Shown here: positions 48,119 through 55,914 of the stretch, piece after piece
Layout: each line of letters begins with the position of its first letter
How positions within the stretch are numbered: position 1 is the first letter of the stretch
Assembly: GCA_023144005.1 (NCBI GenBank)
Contig: JAGLGN010000020.1
Location: forward strand, 186,001-250,000
Direction of reading: 5' to 3'
Length of the DNA: 64,000 nt
Origin: a bacterium
GTDB lineage: Bacteria > AUK180
Notes under the pieces: model-generated
Databases searched by the model: none
What the model saw: only the letters and a program-made list of their open reading frames with translations
Told to the model about the DNA's origin: nothing
Made by a program: the position numbers and the translations under genes

Positions 48119-48265
48119 TTATGATAATCCGACTTTGTTCTTGGTACAAGTACTTGATGTCTGCGGTGTTGTGGCATTACACCTCACCCATTGCGGCTTG
48201 GAGGGATTGCATCGGACTTCAATAAATATTTTCTTCAAAACCGGTTTAGACCATTTCTTTTTCAT
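48119..48265 (-). CDS. Putative RiPP precursor peptide (48 residues, three Cys)
   Basis: Begins MKKKWSKPVLKKIFIEV, a Lys-rich start with the K-P-x-L pattern seen in many leader peptides that bind PqqD-like carriers. The second half holds Cys at 19, 29 and 40 and the word VRCN twice (17-20 and 27-30), with Thr, Ser, Asn and Pro between, so it looks like a modifiable core. The ATG at 48265 lies inside the last codons of the radical SAM gene (20-bp overlap), with AAAGGA eight bases upstream. Stop TAA at 48119-48121. The gene follows the enzyme and its PqqD partner on the same strand. A role as their substrate is inferred from position, size and composition. Confidence 0.72.
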   Translation of the reverse strand: MKKKWSKPVLKKIFIEVRCNPSKPQWVRCNATTPQTSSTCTKNKVGLS

Positions 48266-49238
48266 AAACAATTCCTTTTATACAAACAGGGTCGCGTTCC
48301 ATTTTATATAGACCGCGGCGCGCGGGACATCCACCCATGCATGTCTCGGACACAGAACAGGCAGCACAGCCCTCGGGCATTTGCCTGTATTTTGAGTATA
48401 TCTCTAAATTCTCCCAGGCTCCCTTGATCCCTACATCGAAGATATTTATTTGCTCATTGAAAAGGACACCGTAGGCGCAAGGGAGGACAGTTCCATCCGA
48501 AAGGATTTCCATGGATGTCGTAAATTTATCACCCAGGGAGCATACCGTGGGATATCCGTTATCCTCATATGATAGGCTCTCGGACTGGAATTGTAAGCGT
48601 CCATCATCCATACCGGTGATAAGCTCTGATATCATATGAAGATCCTTTGTTGAGGGCTTTTTTACATGCTTTGAGAAAGCGGAACCCATCATGAATACTT
48701 CGGTGAATTTCATCCGATATGGTGAAAGGGGAAGTACCTTCCGGATAATAGAGTCAATATCACCGGCATTGACGGATGTGATCGTCGTCTTAGTGGAAAA
48801 GGGCACTTCATATTCTGACAAAAGCTCCAATGCTTCCCATACCTTGCCCACAACTCCCCTTTTCCCGTAAAGCTGAAGAGAACGCCGCTTGTCGAATGTG
48901 TGAAGCGAGACCTGGATTTCATCTACATCAAGCTCTTTCAATTGAGATATCATGTTCTGATTGAGCAAAGTACCGTTGCTTGTAATTTTCACTTTCATCC
49001 CGTTCTGTTTTAGAAATTTTACGAACGGAAGAAATTCGGGATGCAAAAGCGGCTCTCCGCCGGTAAGGATTATGCCGGGAATACGATTTTTCAGAAGCTC
49101 CGATTTCAGATAAGGAATCAGGTCTCTGCGATCTTTATGGCGGAGATAGGGTTTCCAATTCCTCATACAGAAAGAGCAGTTCAGATTACAAGTTGCAGTA
49201 AGGTCTAAATATAGCTCGAATGGAAGGTCAAAGTACAT
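48246..49238 (-). CDS. Radical SAM/SPASM peptide-modifying enzyme (PqqE-like)
   Basis: 330 residues. The radical SAM [4Fe-4S] ligands are C17, C21 and C24 in TATCNLNCSFCMRN, followed by GGEPLLHPEF, the usual SAM-binding strand. The C-terminal SPASM domain has Cys at about 233, 254, 291, 294, 300, 304 and 319 (GCAACSVSETCMGGC), enough for two auxiliary clusters. Enzymes of this class modify peptides, for example by thioether, C-C or ether links. The gene overlaps the PqqD-like gene by 11 bp upstream and the 48-residue peptide gene downstream. That sets its role as RiPP maturase more firmly than the sequence alone. The chemistry is not readable. Confidence 0.88.
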   Translation of the reverse strand: MYFDLPFELYLDLTATCNLNCSFCMRNWKPYLRHKDRRDLIPYLKSELLKNRIPGIILTGGEPLLHPEFLPFVKFLKQNGMKVKITSNGTLLNQNMISQLKELDVDEIQVSLHTFDKRRSLQLYGKRGVVGKVWEALELLSEYEVPFSTKTTITSVNAGDIDSIIRKVLPLSPYRMKFTEVFMMGSAFSKHVKKPSTKDLHMISELITGMDDGRLQFQSESLSYEDNGYPTVCSLGDKFTTSMEILSDGTVLPCAYGVLFNEQINIFDVGIKGAWENLEIYSKYRQMPEGCAACSVSETCMGGCPARRGLYKMERDPVCIKGIVYEKEMV

Positions 49239-49485
49239 CTAACAACCCCGCGCCAACCAGAGAATCCAGGAATTTTTTAACATCCCCGCGGGCCTTATTA
49301 TCTTCTTCATAAGATTCCAATAGTTTCCCTAGCAATTCGTCAAGATCACGAGGTTCATCCAAAAGTCTCCAGATATCCGCGGCTGTCCCCTCTAAAATGA
49401 ACGGTTCGCCCCTATCCGGATTGAATGCGATCAACTTCCCTTCTTCTTCCCTGATCAATATCTCGCGGTTAATACGGAATTTCAT
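49228..49485 (-). CDS. PqqD-like peptide chaperone (RiPP recognition element)
   Basis: 85 residues, the length of free-standing PqqD proteins. The pattern fits the family: ILIREEEGKLIAFNPD, then a GTAADIWRLLDEP segment and a helical end (LVGAGLLDVL), where strand three and helix three bind leader peptides. Translation is coupled to both neighbours: the ATG overlaps the stop of the OmpA-type gene (TAATG), and the radical SAM gene starts inside its 3' end. Expected role: deliver the precursor peptide to the SPASM enzyme. Confidence 0.84.
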   Translation of the reverse strand: MKFRINREILIREEEGKLIAFNPDRGEPFILEGTAADIWRLLDEPRDLDELLGKLLESYEEDNKARGDVKKFLDSLVGAGLLDVL

Positions 49486-51551
49486 TATCTTACCTTGTCC
49501 AGTATCAATTTTGTCTTCGCTATGAGTTCACTTTTTGGATACTGCTTCGGGAAGGCCTCCAAGAGATTCCTGGCACTGTCGATATTCTTGAGTTTAATGA
49601 GACAGGCAATGATCTTGAATACTGCTTCATCATCGCTGTCATAGGTAGCCGGATCCATGTATTTATAATTCTCCAGAACCCTTTTAAAATAACTGATGGC
49701 GGCATCATAATTTCCATTACTGTATTCATACTGTCCCAGCATATAATAACCGTCTTCGAAAAAGGCGGAATTGGGAACAAGTGAGGTCTTCTCAAGATAG
49801 CCCTTGCCGCTTTTATCATTCTTCTTCAGAAGGCCGCTGCCCACCGAAAAATAGAGTTCGTTCAGGGCTTTTTTGATCTTCAATTTTTTGATGATCTTCT
49901 TTTCTCTGGCAAGCTCCACTTCTCCAAGCTTGATAGCACCTGTGAAGTTTTTGGCATCGGTCATTTCCTTGAAGAGAGTATCATAACTCTTCTGCACGGG
50001 TTTTACTTCTTCTTTAACGACCTTTTTCTTAGGCTCCGCGACCTTCTTGGTAATAGCGGTTTTGGCTGCCCGTTCACGGGCTGCCTTATCTGCCTTATCT
50101 ATCTCTTCCGATATCGACCTTTCAATACTTCTTCTGCGCTTATATTCATCTGTGAAATTTGCACCCTTCACCAAATAGAAATCAACGCGCCGGTTCAATT
50201 TTCTACCGAGATCCGTCCTATTGGAAGCTACCGGAAGTTTAAAGGCGAATGAAAAAGTATTTATCTTTGTCGCAAAGGAAGAACCCAGCTTTTTCAGAAG
50301 ATAGCTCTTTACAGAATCGGCTCTGTTCTTCGAAAGATAATAATTAGCTTTCAGAGAGCCCTTATTATCGGAATGTCCCTCAATAAAGACCGAATACTGC
50401 TGATACTTCCTTATAACCTGAGCGATACGGTCAAGCATCGGATAGGATCCCCGCAGGATATTCGCTGAGCCCCGGGCAAATTGAATGGCCTTGGTCTTCA
50501 ATTGAATACCTTCATCTCTTTTTACCAGGCGAACCTCTTCCTGCACTGTTTCAGTTGCCTTTCTCACCTTCGGGAAGATCGGAGTGGGCTGCTTGGCGAC
50601 AATGATCCTGGGAACAATGAAACCCTTATAAGTACGGGCGATCACCGCTCTCTCCAGCATATGTCCCTTGATATAATCAGGGTCGGGAAGATATTCCGAG
50701 CGTATCCATCCGAATCTCTGTGCAAGGGGTAATAATGTGTCAAAATAACTCACACCAAAATTAATTGCGATGCCGCGATCCTCGCTGAGACTTTTTATCA
50801 TTCTCTGGATATCTGAGAAACCGACCTTTATTGTGATATTTTTCTGTATCAGGCGCATACCGATCCCAATTCCCTTGGAAGAATATTCGACAAAGGAGGA
50901 GAATCTCTTGAAGGTACCGAAGTCCTTATAATACTCAGCGCCGAAGAACATCCCGTTATTCTTCATTTTACCTTCTCCGACGAACTCTCTGCCGCCGATA
51001 CCGCCGGTAATTATAAGATTGGACTCCTTATTGAAGAAGAGATATTTAGAAAGTACAATAAAAAAGGAGTTCTTGGAAATATAATCAGCGTCATTTCCGG
51101 TGGGGGTGATGCTGCTTGTGCTGCCGAGATTCCTCATACCGAAGACAATTGAAGGCAGATATTTCAACTTTGGATTCTCGATCAATTCCGATTCTGAAAA
51201 TCTCTCCAGAGGATCATCAAATACCTTGAGCTTGATCTGCGCGCCGCCCAAGCTGCCTGAAACTCCCTGTATGCCGGTGTATTGTACCCAGGTGAACTCG
51301 AACTTCAATCGATAGAAAGGCGGGTGGTAGGCAAATGTGAATGAAGCGTCTTCCTCGAACCAGTCAGTATTCAACTGATACCCGGAATTTGGATCAGTTG
51401 CCATGTATTGCGATACTGAAAAGGCGAATTCCAGGTTTCCCAAGGTCTTTGTAGATGGTACATACATGAGATCCGACGGGTAATTGAAAAAGGTCGCATT
51501 TGCACACAATGTGAGCATTAAGGCGAGAAATATGGCAGAAATTCTCTTCAT
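49485..51551 (-). CDS. Outer-membrane protein with OmpA domain and TPR-like tail
   Basis: 688 residues. Signal peptide MKRISAIFLALMLTLCANA, then about 300 residues of strand-rich, YjbH/barrel-like sequence. An OmpA C-terminal domain follows at about 357-462 (VFIEGHSDNKGSLKANYYLS, NRRVDFYL), which binds peptidoglycan. Then a Lys-rich linker of about 70 residues, and a BamD/TPR-like end (GYYMLGQYEYSNGNYDAAIS). The combination of barrel, peptidoglycan binder and TPR suggests a scaffold joining outer membrane and cell wall. It is the first gene of the operon with the PqqD-like, SPASM and peptide genes, and it has a sigma-54 promoter directly in front, so the RiPP may act at the envelope. Confidence 0.85.
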   Translation of the reverse strand: MKRISAIFLALMLTLCANATFFNYPSDLMYVPSTKTLGNLEFAFSVSQYMATDPNSGYQLNTDWFEEDASFTFAYHPPFYRLKFEFTWVQYTGIQGVSGSLGGAQIKLKVFDDPLERFSESELIENPKLKYLPSIVFGMRNLGSTSSITPTGNDADYISKNSFFIVLSKYLFFNKESNLIITGGIGGREFVGEGKMKNNGMFFGAEYYKDFGTFKRFSSFVEYSSKGIGIGMRLIQKNITIKVGFSDIQRMIKSLSEDRGIAINFGVSYFDTLLPLAQRFGWIRSEYLPDPDYIKGHMLERAVIARTYKGFIVPRIIVAKQPTPIFPKVRKATETVQEEVRLVKRDEGIQLKTKAIQFARGSANILRGSYPMLDRIAQVIRKYQQYSVFIEGHSDNKGSLKANYYLSKNRADSVKSYLLKKLGSSFATKINTFSFAFKLPVASNRTDLGRKLNRRVDFYLVKGANFTDEYKRRRSIERSISEEIDKADKAARERAAKTAITKKVAEPKKKVVKEEVKPVQKSYDTLFKEMTDAKNFTGAIKLGEVELAREKKIIKKLKIKKALNELYFSVGSGLLKKNDKSGKGYLEKTSLVPNSAFFEDGYYMLGQYEYSNGNYDAAISYFKRVLENYKYMDPATYDSDDEAVFKIIACLIKLKNIDSARNLLEAFPKQYPKSELIAKTKLILDKVR

Positions 51552-51633: not shown

Positions 51634-54600
51634 CTAAAATATAAATGTGGGTGCAAAGAGTATCCCCCTGTTCCTTCCGCCAACACTGAGATCAAATGAA
51701 AGATTCCTCGAATATTGAAAATTGAGTTTGAATTCAGGGGTGAACCTTATCCTTTCATCTTCTTTAGCAAAAGTGATCCTTGTCCCCAGTGAAAATCGAT
51801 CGATATGGCTCATCCAGGACAGAGAAACATCTTCGTCACCGCCCAGAAAGGGACTCACCAGATCAACCTTAATGTCCGTCAATTGAATATATTTTCTCAG
51901 ATTGAACATCACAAATCCGGTGAAATTCTCTTTTGACCCGAGATTCGCCAGTAGATAATCCAGCCCGGTATTGAGCGAGCCGGACGAGAACAGTAAACTC
52001 TTCAATTCTTCAGTTCCCTTTTGAGGGATGGATGAGATCTCAAGATGCATATTATAAAAACTTCCCTGAAGCGATACGGACACCATGTACTTCCTGTCAA
52101 AAATAAAATTATTGCTTGCGGTAAGGTTCACATAGCCCTTCCCGTCGATGGTCGCATTTGCATTTTCGACATTGAATTCACGGCCATAAAGGATGATCCG
52201 CCCTGAATATGCTGATGCATCACCACTTATTACTGGATCCAGAAGATTCTCGCTCAATTGTAATTTACCGGAGATGCGGCCGTCATAGAAGAAATTAAAG
52301 AAGCGTACATCATTATATTCAACTTGAATATCAAGGTCCACTGGAATAAAGATATTATTCTGCGGCGTGTATATTATGAGGGGATTAAAATTGAAAAATC
52401 CCTCACTTGCCTTAAGGTTCAGTGAACTTATCTTGAGAGTATCATCCACAGAAAGAGAAATATTGCCGGATATATCCGTTGATAACCCCAGATCGGGAAT
52501 ATTGAACTGCGTCGGCCGATTAATGTTAAATACTATTCTCTCCGCTTCGTTCACCACTCCTACGGGATAATTTCCCAGTTTCAGCGTCCCTTCCTTCAGA
52601 ACTCTGCCGCCCTTTAAAAATGAAAATGTAAGGTTTTCCGCCTCTATTCTCGAGAAAGTATAATTCATCTTAGCATCGAAATCCATGACCACCTTTCCCA
52701 AAAGCGGGTCACTGCTGAAGGGTTCATACGATAGATCAAAATCCAATGACCCTTTACCGCGTGAAATAACTTTCGGAAAGACCTTCCGGATCTCCCCGAC
52801 ATCCAGATAGCCCTTAAACCCCATCTTGTAGTTCATTATCCCCTTTCTATTGAAAGTGATGTAGGAGGATGGCGCAAATTCCACCTTGGAATGCTGGGTT
52901 TTCAACCTCAGATCGTTTATTCTCAGATTGTTCCTGTCTAAGTGAAGCGAAGCGGAGACCCTCTCGTATTTAAGAGAATTTATCTTTCCATTTGTTGAAC
53001 TGACGGAAAGATAGACCGATGGGGAATCCAGATAACCCGCCAGGCTTAAACTGCCGTTCAGCTTTCCCTGAAGCCTGATCTCATCGAAGTAATTATCTAT
53101 CGGGAAATTATCCAGATCCGCGGACAGTGAAAGCTCTCTTTCGATCTTCCCCTTGGCATAAAGGGATCCATCGGACCGCATGTATCTCAGTTCATCAAGG
53201 AAAACACCACGGAAACCACCCGCTTCTGAATACCCTATCCTAGATCGGATGGTCAGGACAGGGCTGCGGACTTTCTTCTTGTTCATTGTATAGAGGGATA
53301 CTACGCTTTGCAGGGAAGATTCACTCTCGATCGAAAGGATCGCCGAGGAATGCGTCTCGCCTAAAATTGAAACCGGAGAAGGAGTACATAAGATAACGGA
53401 GTCGTCAACCTTTCCGGTAAATGACCCTCCGAGTATATCAATATTCTTTGTATATGAGACCTTCAGGCCTGAGATACTAAAGTTCTTCGTCCTAATGTCA
53501 TCGTATTTGAATGAATCGGCTGAAATAGATACTCCGCTCTTGAAAGCAGTATTTTTCAGGTCCAAAGCCAGAGAATCTCCCTTAACTTCGATTATTCCTG
53601 ATGTGGAGAAGGCCATATTCGATCTGGAATAGTTCAATCTGGTGAAGTAGAGGTGCATATCTTCGGTATTTTTAAAACTCCCTCGGCCCGAAAATTGAAG
53701 CCGGTCGCCGTTTATTGAAAAATATTCCAGATCGAACTTCTCCTCTTCATAGGAAAATACAAGAGAATAGTCGAAAAAGCCGCTTTCAAAACCTTTGATC
53801 TCCACAGGAAATGAGGAGCCAAAAAGGTCACCTTTCAGCTTAAGTGCCTTGCCCGCGAATATATATTCGCCGGATAATGTTCCGTTCAGACGCATCCCCT
53901 TAACAGTGCCGTAGTTAACAAAGAGCGAATCCATTCGTACCTCGGATATAAGGCTGTATCGGGAAGATACGCCTTTAAATCTGGCCTTTCCCGCAAAACC
54001 CCCTTCATAAATAATGCTATCCCCAATGGAAAACTCTATGTAGCCGTTTTTGAATTCATTCTGCAGTACATTCAATTCATCGATAATTGCAAGACCTCTT
54101 TTCTTTTTCGGCGAGAAAAGCAAACTGCCGCTTGAGCTGAATTTTTCATGGGATACATTGAACTTTCCGGAAAATGTACTGTTTTTATAATCACCGGAAA
54201 TGTACAGATCGGAATCCAAATGATCTATTTCCAAGCGCTTCAATTCCAATTCTCCCTTTCTATTTATAAGATCAAAGCCGCCATTTGGAGATCTCAACAA
54301 AAGATATTGATAGTCCCCCTTAGTCCCTACTGTAAGCAAAGCTGTATCTCCGAAGGCATCGGTAATAATGCCGGGGGAAATTATCGAAGATAATTCAGAA
54401 TCCTCCTTAAATGACAATTTGCCGGAAAAATCACCTGATAAGATATTGAGTTTTTCAAAATATACCGAGTCGCTTTCGATGCAGGCAGAAAGGGAGAATG
54501 GAGTATCCTTATAGGGATTATGCAGAGTTCCCTCTTTAATATCTATTGTAATTTTCCCGTTCTCTATCTGAATGAGCGAATCTCCGGAAAGAGAGGCTGA

Positions 54601-55914
54601 GTCGCCCAAAAGATACTCTCCGCTGCCGCGGCCTGTAATTTCACTTCCATTATAAAGCCCTTTGAATATATAACCGCTCTCCTCAAATTGAACGGTAGCT
54701 TTACGGTAGGAAAGTATCTCTGAAAAGAGAGAGCCGTTCCTTATCGGGCCGATGCCGATACGCGATACCTTCAAATGCCCGAAGATCTTGCCAAAACCGA
54801 TCCCGCGAAGTTTTACTTCTTCCAAGAGGCTGCTTTGTAAAGGAATATTATAAAGTCCTTTCACTGAATCGTTAAGAAATGAAAGGTCATAATCAAATAT
54901 GTCAATATAGTATTGCTGAAATTTTTCGCTCATGGAAAAAGAGGCATTTTTCCTGGTATTTTCCAGGAGAATGCTGCCCTTATCGGGATCCACCCAGCCG
55001 TATAGAGAATCTATATATTTTCCGGCCAGGCAGATATCTTTCAGCGACACCCTGAGCCTGCCAGCGATATTACCTTCTGCTGTGATATTCATATCAAGGT
55101 CAGAACTGAGCAAGTCCCTCAGCCAGATATCCGCGGAAACATCACCGGAAGAATTTACCGATACGAGTTGCTCGCCGGATTCCGATATCACTGTTCCGCT
55201 CTTTTCCTTCCAGAATATATTTATGTTTTTCGTTTTTTCGGAAACAATCGTCCCCCTGACCTCCCCGGTATCCTTCGAATAGTATCCCTTCAGAGAAAAC
55301 CCGGAAATACTCAACTCGGCATCAATATTGCCGTCAACCGCCTCTACATTTATTCCCGGGCCGACAAGTGAAACCTTATCGTCTGAGGTGGATATTTCGA
55401 AATCGATCTTCGGACTGTGAAAACTTCCTTTTTGACCGCTCAGATCATAGATAAATACGGCTTCCGTAAGGAGCGGCATTTTTAAAATTGAGATCTCCAA
55501 TTGTGAAGATACTAAAGCGATATCCGCGGTGATGAGAGAGTTTGAGAACTTCCCGTCCATTTTTAAGGGACTGATGGACAGATCAGCGGTGCCGTATGAA
55601 CGGCTATTATAAAATACTGTGATATTATTCAAATTGATCTGATAAGACAGCCGGCTTTTTTTGTCTTCTATCTTCGGAAGTACCTTAGGCAGGCGAATTT
55701 CACCCCCGTCAATGTCAACGCAAATTGCCTTTCGATGATATTTTATCTCGGCATTGTCAAAAAGAATGTCAATGCCTTCATAGGAGGCCTTGCCCTCTTT
55801 GAGCTTTACTCCGGAAAAAGATGGAATGATCGATTCATATTCAAGTGAAAGGTATTTTTTTATGTATAAAAACCCCGCAGCACTGAAGATTACAATAGCC
55901 GCTGCGGGGATCAG
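51634..55914 (-). CDS. TamB-like (DUF490) envelope protein with a non-standard start
   Basis: About 1426 residues from a CTG at 55914, or 1332 from the first conventional codon (TTG at 55632). The C-terminus has the DUF490 pattern of amphipathic strands, for example FSSGSLNTGLDYLLANLGS, ending in GRNRGILFAPTFIF. TamB and AsmA proteins form long beta-helical grooves across the periplasm that move lipid or help outer-membrane assembly. The frame stays open from 55632 up to the clpC stop at 55930, and that extension encodes a membrane anchor (IPAAAIVIFSAAGFLYIKK) followed by AsmA-like sequence, so the true start is upstream of the TTG. No ATG, GTG or TTG exists there. A hairpin with a T-run, likely the clpC terminator, sits inside this region. 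Confidence 0.78.
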   Translation of the reverse strand: MIPAAAIVIFSAAGFLYIKKYLSLEYESIIPSFSGVKLKEGKASYEGIDILFDNAEIKYHRKAICVDIDGGEIRLPKVLPKIEDKKSRLSYQINLNNITVFYNSRSYGTADLSISPLKMDGKFSNSLITADIALVSSQLEISILKMPLLTEAVFIYDLSGQKGSFHSPKIDFEISTSDDKVSLVGPGINVEAVDGNIDAELSISGFSLKGYYSKDTGEVRGTIVSEKTKNINIFWKEKSGTVISESGEQLVSVNSSGDVSADIWLRDLLSSDLDMNITAEGNIAGRLRVSLKDICLAGKYIDSLYGWVDPDKGSILLENTRKNASFSMSEKFQQYYIDIFDYDLSFLNDSVKGLYNIPLQSSLLEEVKLRGIGFGKIFGHLKVSRIGIGPIRNGSLFSEILSYRKATVQFEESGYIFKGLYNGSEITGRGSGEYLLGDSASLSGDSLIQIENGKITIDIKEGTLHNPYKDTPFSLSACIESDSVYFEKLNILSGDFSGKLSFKEDSELSSIISPGIITDAFGDTALLTVGTKGDYQYLLLRSPNGGFDLINRKGELELKRLEIDHLDSDLYISGDYKNSTFSGKFNVSHEKFSSSGSLLFSPKKKRGLAIIDELNVLQNEFKNGYIEFSIGDSIIYEGGFAGKARFKGVSSRYSLISEVRMDSLFVNYGTVKGMRLNGTLSGEYIFAGKALKLKGDLFGSSFPVEIKGFESGFFDYSLVFSYEEEKFDLEYFSINGDRLQFSGRGSFKNTEDMHLYFTRLNYSRSNMAFSTSGIIEVKGDSLALDLKNTAFKSGVSISADSFKYDDIRTKNFSISGLKVSYTKNIDILGGSFTGKVDDSVILCTPSPVSILGETHSSAILSIESESSLQSVVSLYTMNKKKVRSPVLTIRSRIGYSEAGGFRGVFLDELRYMRSDGSLYAKGKIERELSLSADLDNFPIDNYFDEIRLQGKLNGSLSLAGYLDSPSVYLSVSSTNGKINSLKYERVSASLHLDRNNLRINDLRLKTQHSKVEFAPSSYITFNRKGIMNYKMGFKGYLDVGEIRKVFPKVISRGKGSLDFDLSYEPFSSDPLLGKVVMDFDAKMNYTFSRIEAENLTFSFLKGGRVLKEGTLKLGNYPVGVVNEAERIVFNINRPTQFNIPDLGLSTDISGNISLSVDDTLKISSLNLKASEGFFNFNPLIIYTPQNNIFIPVDLDIQVEYNDVRFFNFFYDGRISGKLQLSENLLDPVISGDASAYSGRIILYGREFNVENANATIDGKGYVNLTASNNFIFDRKYMVSVSLQGSFYNMHLEISSIPQKGTEELKSLLFSSGSLNTGLDYLLANLGSKENFTGFVMFNLRKYIQLTDIKVDLVSPFLGGDEDVSLSWMSHIDRFSLGTRITFAKEDERIRFTPEFKLNFQYSRNLSFDLSVGGRNRGILFAPTFIF
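55868..55909 (-). terminator. Intrinsic terminator of clpC, inside the TamB-like 5' end
   Basis: On the minus strand CCCCGCAGC (55901-55909) pairs with GCTGCGGGG (55873-55881) around a 19-base loop, followed by five T (55868-55872). The stem is perfect. It lies 21 bases after the clpC stop. It also forms part of the reading frame for the membrane anchor of the TamB-like protein, so expression of that protein may need read-through. Confidence 0.65.

Follow-up and report, generated by a model that had tools for sequence, protein, structure and literature searches.

A compact PqqD/radical SAM cassette with a conserved three-cysteine peptide as a candidate RiPP system of uncultured bacterial lineages

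Introduction

Discrete RREs of lasso systems bind a [Y/W]xxPx[L/V/I/F/A] motif in the leader of their precursor peptides (PMC13381572). In the carrier LppB, Asp70 bonds the Tyr of a YxxP leader and Asn33 steadies its Pro kink, and these sites hold Gly and Gln in PbaB1, a carrier for WxxP leaders (PMC13381572). A WxxP leader is also bound by StsC, the RRE of the StsA sactipeptide system, and both the W and the P are needed for binding (PMC12710340). In paeninodin-like lasso systems, HprK-like kinases phosphorylate the C-terminal Ser of the precursor (PMC9266682, PMC10368454). Systems that have the kinase gene show strong conservation of this Ser, and hexose can be added by an NTP-transferase (PMC9266682).

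Here we analyze a 64,000-nucleotide stretch of bacterial DNA (the window) in which a PqqD-family carrier, a radical SAM/SPASM enzyme and a 48-residue peptide are encoded in succession. On comparison with related genomes, we are fairly confident that this trio is best explained as a compact RiPP cassette of the carrier-guided radical SAM kind.

Results

All three genes of the cassette lie on the minus strand. The first encodes an 85-residue PqqD-family carrier, a predicted RRE (49228..49485; Pfam PqqD, 2e-15, and structure model), and the next a radical SAM/SPASM maturase of 330 residues (48246..49238; Pfam Radical_SAM, 4.5e-24, structure model and clade membership). The precursor peptide gene (48 residues, 48119..48265) is recognized as a conserved ORF under purifying selection. 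A sequence-only reading of this DNA had proposed that the three genes overlap by 11 bp and 20 bp and that the peptide starts inside the enzyme gene, and our coordinates bear out both points. An AAGGA stretch resembling a Shine-Dalgarno sequence (48273..48277, minus strand; a reading of the sequence) lies within the enzyme gene 7 nt before the peptide ATG, and is identical in the sister species (G001) of the window genome (G000).

The stop codon of an OmpA/TPR outer-membrane protein gene (49485..51551, minus strand; Pfam OmpA, 1.3e-16) overlaps the carrier start by 1 bp. This stop/start overlap recurs in four genomes (G000, G001, G003 and G004), and the OmpA/TPR gene and the cassette are probably on one transcript. 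A TamB-like gene (51634-55632; Pfam) lies upstream on the same strand. The genes flanking the trio comprise rhomboid, OmpA/TPR and TamB-like genes, assigned by Pfam, and DnaK-, DnaJ- and Clp-like genes, assigned by inspection. The Clp-like, TamB-like and OmpA/TPR genes are 5′ of the cassette in G000, G001 and G004, and OmpA/TPR is directly upstream in G003 too. In a further genome of the group, G002, the OmpA and rhomboid genes are adjacent with no cassette between them, indicating that the cassette is dispensable or movable. A link between the upstream OmpA and TamB-like genes and the cassette is possible, whether functional or merely transcriptional. No exporter, protease or kinase is found alongside the cassette in the window's phylum-level group (clade A), no B2 protease or macrolactam synthetase was seen at 42-58 kb of the window, and PqqB and PqqC are absent among the cassette's neighboring genes. 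Scans for promoters and terminators around the cassette gave results at about chance level.

The window peptide, MKKKWSKPVLKKIFIEVRCNPSKPQWVRCNATTPQTSSTCTKNKVGLS, has Cys residues at positions 19, 29 and 40, as the earlier reading had noted. Searching beside PqqD/SPASM pairs in related genomes, as that reading had suggested, recovered a 48-codon ORF overlapping the 3′ end of the enzyme orthologue in G001 (contig public as JAGLWT010000146), G003 and G004. These relatives keep the enzyme pair together with the peptide, the frame is free of stops, and no rival small peptide lies beside the pair. The enzyme orthologues are 95%, 51% and 49% identical to that of the window, respectively, and the peptides align without gaps at 83%, 69% and 63% identity. 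Since the G003 and G004 carriers are 32-41% identical to that of the window and the enzymes about 50%, the peptide is the best-conserved member of the trio across genera. Outside the overlap, pN is 0.13-0.30 and pS 0.35-1.0, and variable columns at codon positions 1, 2 and 3 number 18, 11 and 38. The peptide gene is under purifying selection. Overlapping plus-strand ORFs were rejected as the true gene, as third-position variability fits the minus frame.

The three core cysteines, Cys19 (48209..48211), Cys29 (48179..48181) and Cys40 (48146..48148, all minus strand), are invariant in clade A precursors. Beyond them, the four close clade A peptides all share N20, P21, P24, Q25, A31, P34, Q35 and T36, and the clade A core consensus is CNPxxPQxxxC[ND]AxxPQTxxxCTKNKxGLS. 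The two VRCN words to which the sequence-only reading drew attention are not conserved, as relatives have ILCD, VTCN or ITCD; what is conserved instead is C-N-P-x-x-P-Q / C-[ND]-A-x-x-P-Q-T and the CX9CX10C spacing. Core residue 26, an aromatic in the window, is W, F or T among relatives. When the peptide profile was run against all seven genomes of the phylum-level group, a fifth copy turned up in G002, MKKKWSKPEIMMININAKPPPPCNPAKPQTERCDATNPQYLAPCKGGIPLS, which has diverged in sequence but retains the CX9CX10C spacing. This copy sits at a contig end (L091:18-1860, contig C56), opposite an HprK-like kinase gene and an NTP_transf_5 gene, and no enzyme or carrier for it was found in that assembly. 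Another peptide match in G000 and G001 (E 0.08-0.17) was discarded as an unrelated ORF.

Between the window genome and its sister species, about 22% of sites differ in the peptide region and about 4% in the enzyme gene, and the divergent region begins right after the WSKP codons. The dS is 0.47 in the peptide core (48119-48245 versus L042) and 0.11 in the enzyme gene, so that core divergence is about five times that of the adjacent gene, synonymous sites included. This hints at local recombination, or at a core that diverges or diversifies quickly while the leader stays fixed.

The peptide matches no Pfam or NCBIfam model, and no NCBIfam family cut-off is reached by either the enzyme or the carrier, which agrees with the earlier description of the system as probably new. 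The peptide was not found on plasmids or viral contigs, and its profile produced no convincing match beyond the family in the 386 genomes around the window. The enzyme alignment was searched against 386 genomes, then against whole small phyla, and then against 385 genomes around G365. A sharp gap separates members (E <= 1e-74) from all other matches (about 1e-41 or worse), and across the 386 and 385 genomes members occur in three groups only, namely clade A (4 of 7 genomes), the group of G048 (clade B, 2 of 4) and the group of G365 (clade C, 5 of 8). The eleven enzymes form one clade (support 100/99), and a PqqD gene and a short peptide lie beside every one. A leader motif, W-x-x-P-x-[LI], and a terminal Ser are present in 12/12 peptides. 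That two further phylum-level groups have same-motif precursors beside their enzyme orthologues supports the original RiPP reading.

Three Cys are found in 10 of the 12 peptides, with the first two spaced CX9C in nine of these. The CX9C of Cys29 is present in four clade C precursors too, and the interval before the last Cys, X10 in the window, is X11-12 in four clade C precursors. When the window-type and G390-type (clade C) precursor profiles were compared, the three Cys aligned (hhalign P 8.5e-5, probability 60%); this match is suggestive alone and becomes stronger with the shared gene context. The C-terminal ends read KNxVFS in four clade C precursors and TKNK[VI]GLS in the four close clade A ones. 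The three-Cys core is not universal, since clade B precursors have two Cys with different spacing. In addition, clade B precursors (L013:1182-1385 and L101:1394-1603) carry a Tat-like RREFLEKGKK and a hydrophobic stretch ahead of the WxxP motif, and on the strength of this Tat-like start the clade B product may be exported through Tat.

The enzyme contains CX3CX2C plus the series CX15GX4C ... CX2CX5CX3C ... C. Its ten predicted Fe-S cysteines (CX3CX2C and seven SPASM Cys in canonical order) are invariant in seven aligned sequences, and the Pfam SPASM match is sub-threshold at 19.1 versus 21.5 bits. Structural matches to the enzyme model are led by SkfB and SuiB, with PqqE further down, and PqqE is the best PDB match by sequence. 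Model confidence is low in the C-terminal SPASM region, which was thus not used for cluster placement. Membership in the PQQ, mycofactocin, PapB, StsB or lasso families was considered and rejected on curated cut-offs, with the enzyme scoring far under those for PqqE, mycofactocin and PapB.

The window leader motif, W5-S-K-P8-V-L10 (48236..48253, minus strand), fits the known RRE recognition motif. The sequence-only reading had correctly seen a leader-like start here; its K-P-x-L motif does not hold up, as the conserved form is WxxPx[LI] and one homologue has RP. The carrier model (pLDDT 91) has an RRE fold and superposes on TbiB1-leader complexes with TM scores of 0.82-0.87, and the nearest solved relatives of the carrier family profile are TbiB1, PbaB1, LppB and TfuB1 (PDB 9x90 and 9x8z being taken as PbaB1 and LppB by their entry titles).

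A second RiPP-like system lies outside the window in the same genome, on contig C1 at about 161.6-164.5 kb (L094:6594-9478; also L095, L096, L097 and L036). It encodes a PqqD protein, a lasso-B2-like protein (below cut-off), a SPASM enzyme, a 51-residue precursor with a YxxP leader, MTIKRKYIKPVLTKYEKVRDVTTATVALEGTASAADCTLTRCTSEPPAIKG, and an HprK-like kinase. Precursors of equal length and similar sequence occur in G002, G004, G005 and G006, genomes that span two families. The Asn and Asp pair is kept in the YxxP carriers of this second system in 6/6 genomes and is absent from the WxxP carriers in 10/10, which have Glu and Asp (clade A), Asn and Glu (clade B) or Asn and Glu/Gln/Thr-type residues (clade C). 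This correlation between carrier residues and leader is what leader discrimination would predict.

Genes for HprK-like kinases neighbor the enzymes of G048, G365, G388, G389 and G390 as well as the G002 peptide, where the NTP_transf_5 gene is also present, and the kinases keep the His, the P-loop and the acidic pair. No such kinase is encoded in the window cassette, whose precursor nonetheless shares the family's terminal Ser (Ser48; 48122..48124, minus strand).

Discussion

Our analysis suggests a route from carrier to modified peptide. The PqqD protein, acting as a discrete RRE, would bind the WxxPx[LI] leader of the 48-residue precursor and hand the precursor to the SPASM enzyme. The enzyme would then cleave SAM, and the resulting 5′-deoxyadenosyl radical would modify the C-terminal three-Cys core. 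Leader removal and export may follow, with neither a protease nor an exporter within the cassette. That the peptide is the substrate of the enzyme is very probable.

The core modification would most likely be the formation of Cys thioether cross-links, a chemistry we favor by a modest degree, given the seven SPASM Cys and that Cys are the main core residues common to clade C. Seven SPASM Cys are too few to ligate two clusters entirely through Cys, a point made for AlbA, and in CteB the open AuxI site binds a substrate Cys (PMC6231123). A core Cys thiolate may occupy an open AuxI site in the window enzyme as well, which its seven SPASM Cys would allow. This count is not decisive, because PqqE has an Asp as cluster ligand, and SuiB, with an extra Cys ligand, forms a side-chain cross-link without sulfur and makes no thioether. 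The same cassette could therefore act without thioethers, through a C-C cross-link, epimerization or another change that spares Cys, with the cysteines serving as metal ligands or in disulfides. The presence of SuiB and PqqE, both makers of C-C bonds, among the closest structural matches speaks for such chemistry, as does the set of eight invariant core residues other than Cys in the close clade A peptides. However, the core residues that line up with clade C are mainly Cys, and the plausible cross-link site, the aromatic at position 26, varies, leaving a non-thioether product unlikely, though it is the most serious of the alternatives. A streptide-like Lys-Trp cross-link as the sole chemistry was rejected on the same W26 substitutions.

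The minimal layout of carrier, SPASM enzyme and short peptide is identical to that of cofactor pathways, and core conservation reaches the last residue in different genera, which sets it apart from most antimicrobial RiPPs. Both features would fit a small conserved metabolite or cofactor, in the style of PQQ or mycofactocin, with the rest of the precursor discarded. We regard this as improbable, as conservation extends over about 30 residues rather than one short motif, the cassette has no peptidase or further tailoring gene, the enzyme falls far under the PqqE and mycofactocin cut-offs, and the core diverges quickly between two sister species. It is still harder to see the peptide as escaping modification and serving the enzyme as a small regulator or chaperone-like subunit, even though the clade A peptide always overlaps the enzyme gene and has no adjacent protease or exporter. 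The WxxPx[LI] near the N-terminus, beside a dedicated PqqD protein in 12/12 cases, is a defined carrier ligand (PMC13381572), and across the clades the leader motif and terminal Ser stay constant, unlike length and core. A short, overlapping ORF might also be spurious, and here this idea is refuted by equal length and frame in four genomes, purifying selection and a profile E of about 1e-32, so that its probability is negligible.

The invariant terminal Ser would be explained by phosphorylation by HprK-like kinases, as in lasso precursors. In the other phyla, the HprK-like kinase probably phosphorylates this residue, although Ser phosphorylation somewhere in the family is a proposal we hold with some doubt. 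In the window organism, a kinase might act in trans, for which that of the second system could serve, or the terminal Ser may be a relic.

These findings add a radical SAM precursor family that is conserved among small uncultured lineages and has its enzyme, carrier and substrate defined, and the trio is small enough for joint expression. Such strong conservation of the core is unusual and points to a physiological function held in common rather than to an arms-race antibiotic. The family also joins radical cross-linking to lasso-type recognition of the leader, the latter coupled with C-terminal Ser kinases, two RiPP logics that are usually separate. WxxP and YxxP radical SAM systems with matching carriers in one genome provide a natural test of carrier insulation. 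It is tempting to speculate, and only tentatively, that these systems constitute a RiPP class of their own, present in three or more uncultured groups of phylum level. Such a class would combine lasso-type parts (the W/Y leader code, the discrete RRE and the C-terminal Ser kinase) with radical SAM cross-linking of a three-Cys core to yield cross-linked, phosphorylated peptides, its W and Y systems being insulated by their carriers.

Several described systems share parts of this plan. As in PQQ biosynthesis (PqqA/PqqD/PqqE), a separate PqqD protein accompanies a SPASM enzyme, but the scores reach 24.7 of 46 bits for PqqD and 83.4 of 381.35 bits for PqqE, and the precursor is unlike PqqA. Ranthipeptide and sactipeptide systems (PapB, CteB, SkfB) resemble the cassette in their SPASM/Twitch enzyme, Cys-containing precursor and fold; they differ from it in that the carrier here is separate and the CX9CX10C spacing was matched to no known spacing, and the enzyme scores 59 of 340 bits against the PapB cut-off. 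LPPs (linear polyphosphorylated peptides) likewise have a discrete RRE and a [Y/W]xxP-type leader, with an HprK-like kinase in our related clades (PMC13381572). Their leader is of the YxxP type, and their listed core set holds a signal-peptidase-like protein and a transporter and no radical SAM enzyme (PMC13381572). The StsA/StsB/StsC system shares the discrete PqqD-like RRE, radical SAM/SPASM enzyme and WxxP leader (PMC12710340), the three parts that the comparison covered. Against the StsB model (NF045574), a clade C enzyme scores 74.9 bits versus a cut-off of 625, and the model is outside the best 25 families of the window enzyme.

With paeninodin-like lasso systems (PMC13381572, PMC9266682), the family has in common the WxxPx[LI] leader, the discrete RRE and the invariant C-terminal Ser, while the kinase is shared by clades B and C and the G002 locus, and the NTP-transferase by G002. 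Here, a SPASM enzyme replaces the B2 protease and macrolactam synthetase, and the window lacks the kinase. The literature searched, outside which most subscription papers and preprints lie, holds no description of this precursor family, enzyme clade or leader-Ser combination. The general plan of a discrete RRE, a SPASM radical SAM enzyme and a WxxP leader is already known, for example from StsA/StsC (PMC12710340); by the sequence comparisons made here, the precursor family, the enzyme clade and the combination of a lasso-type leader with a terminal Ser lie outside every curated model.
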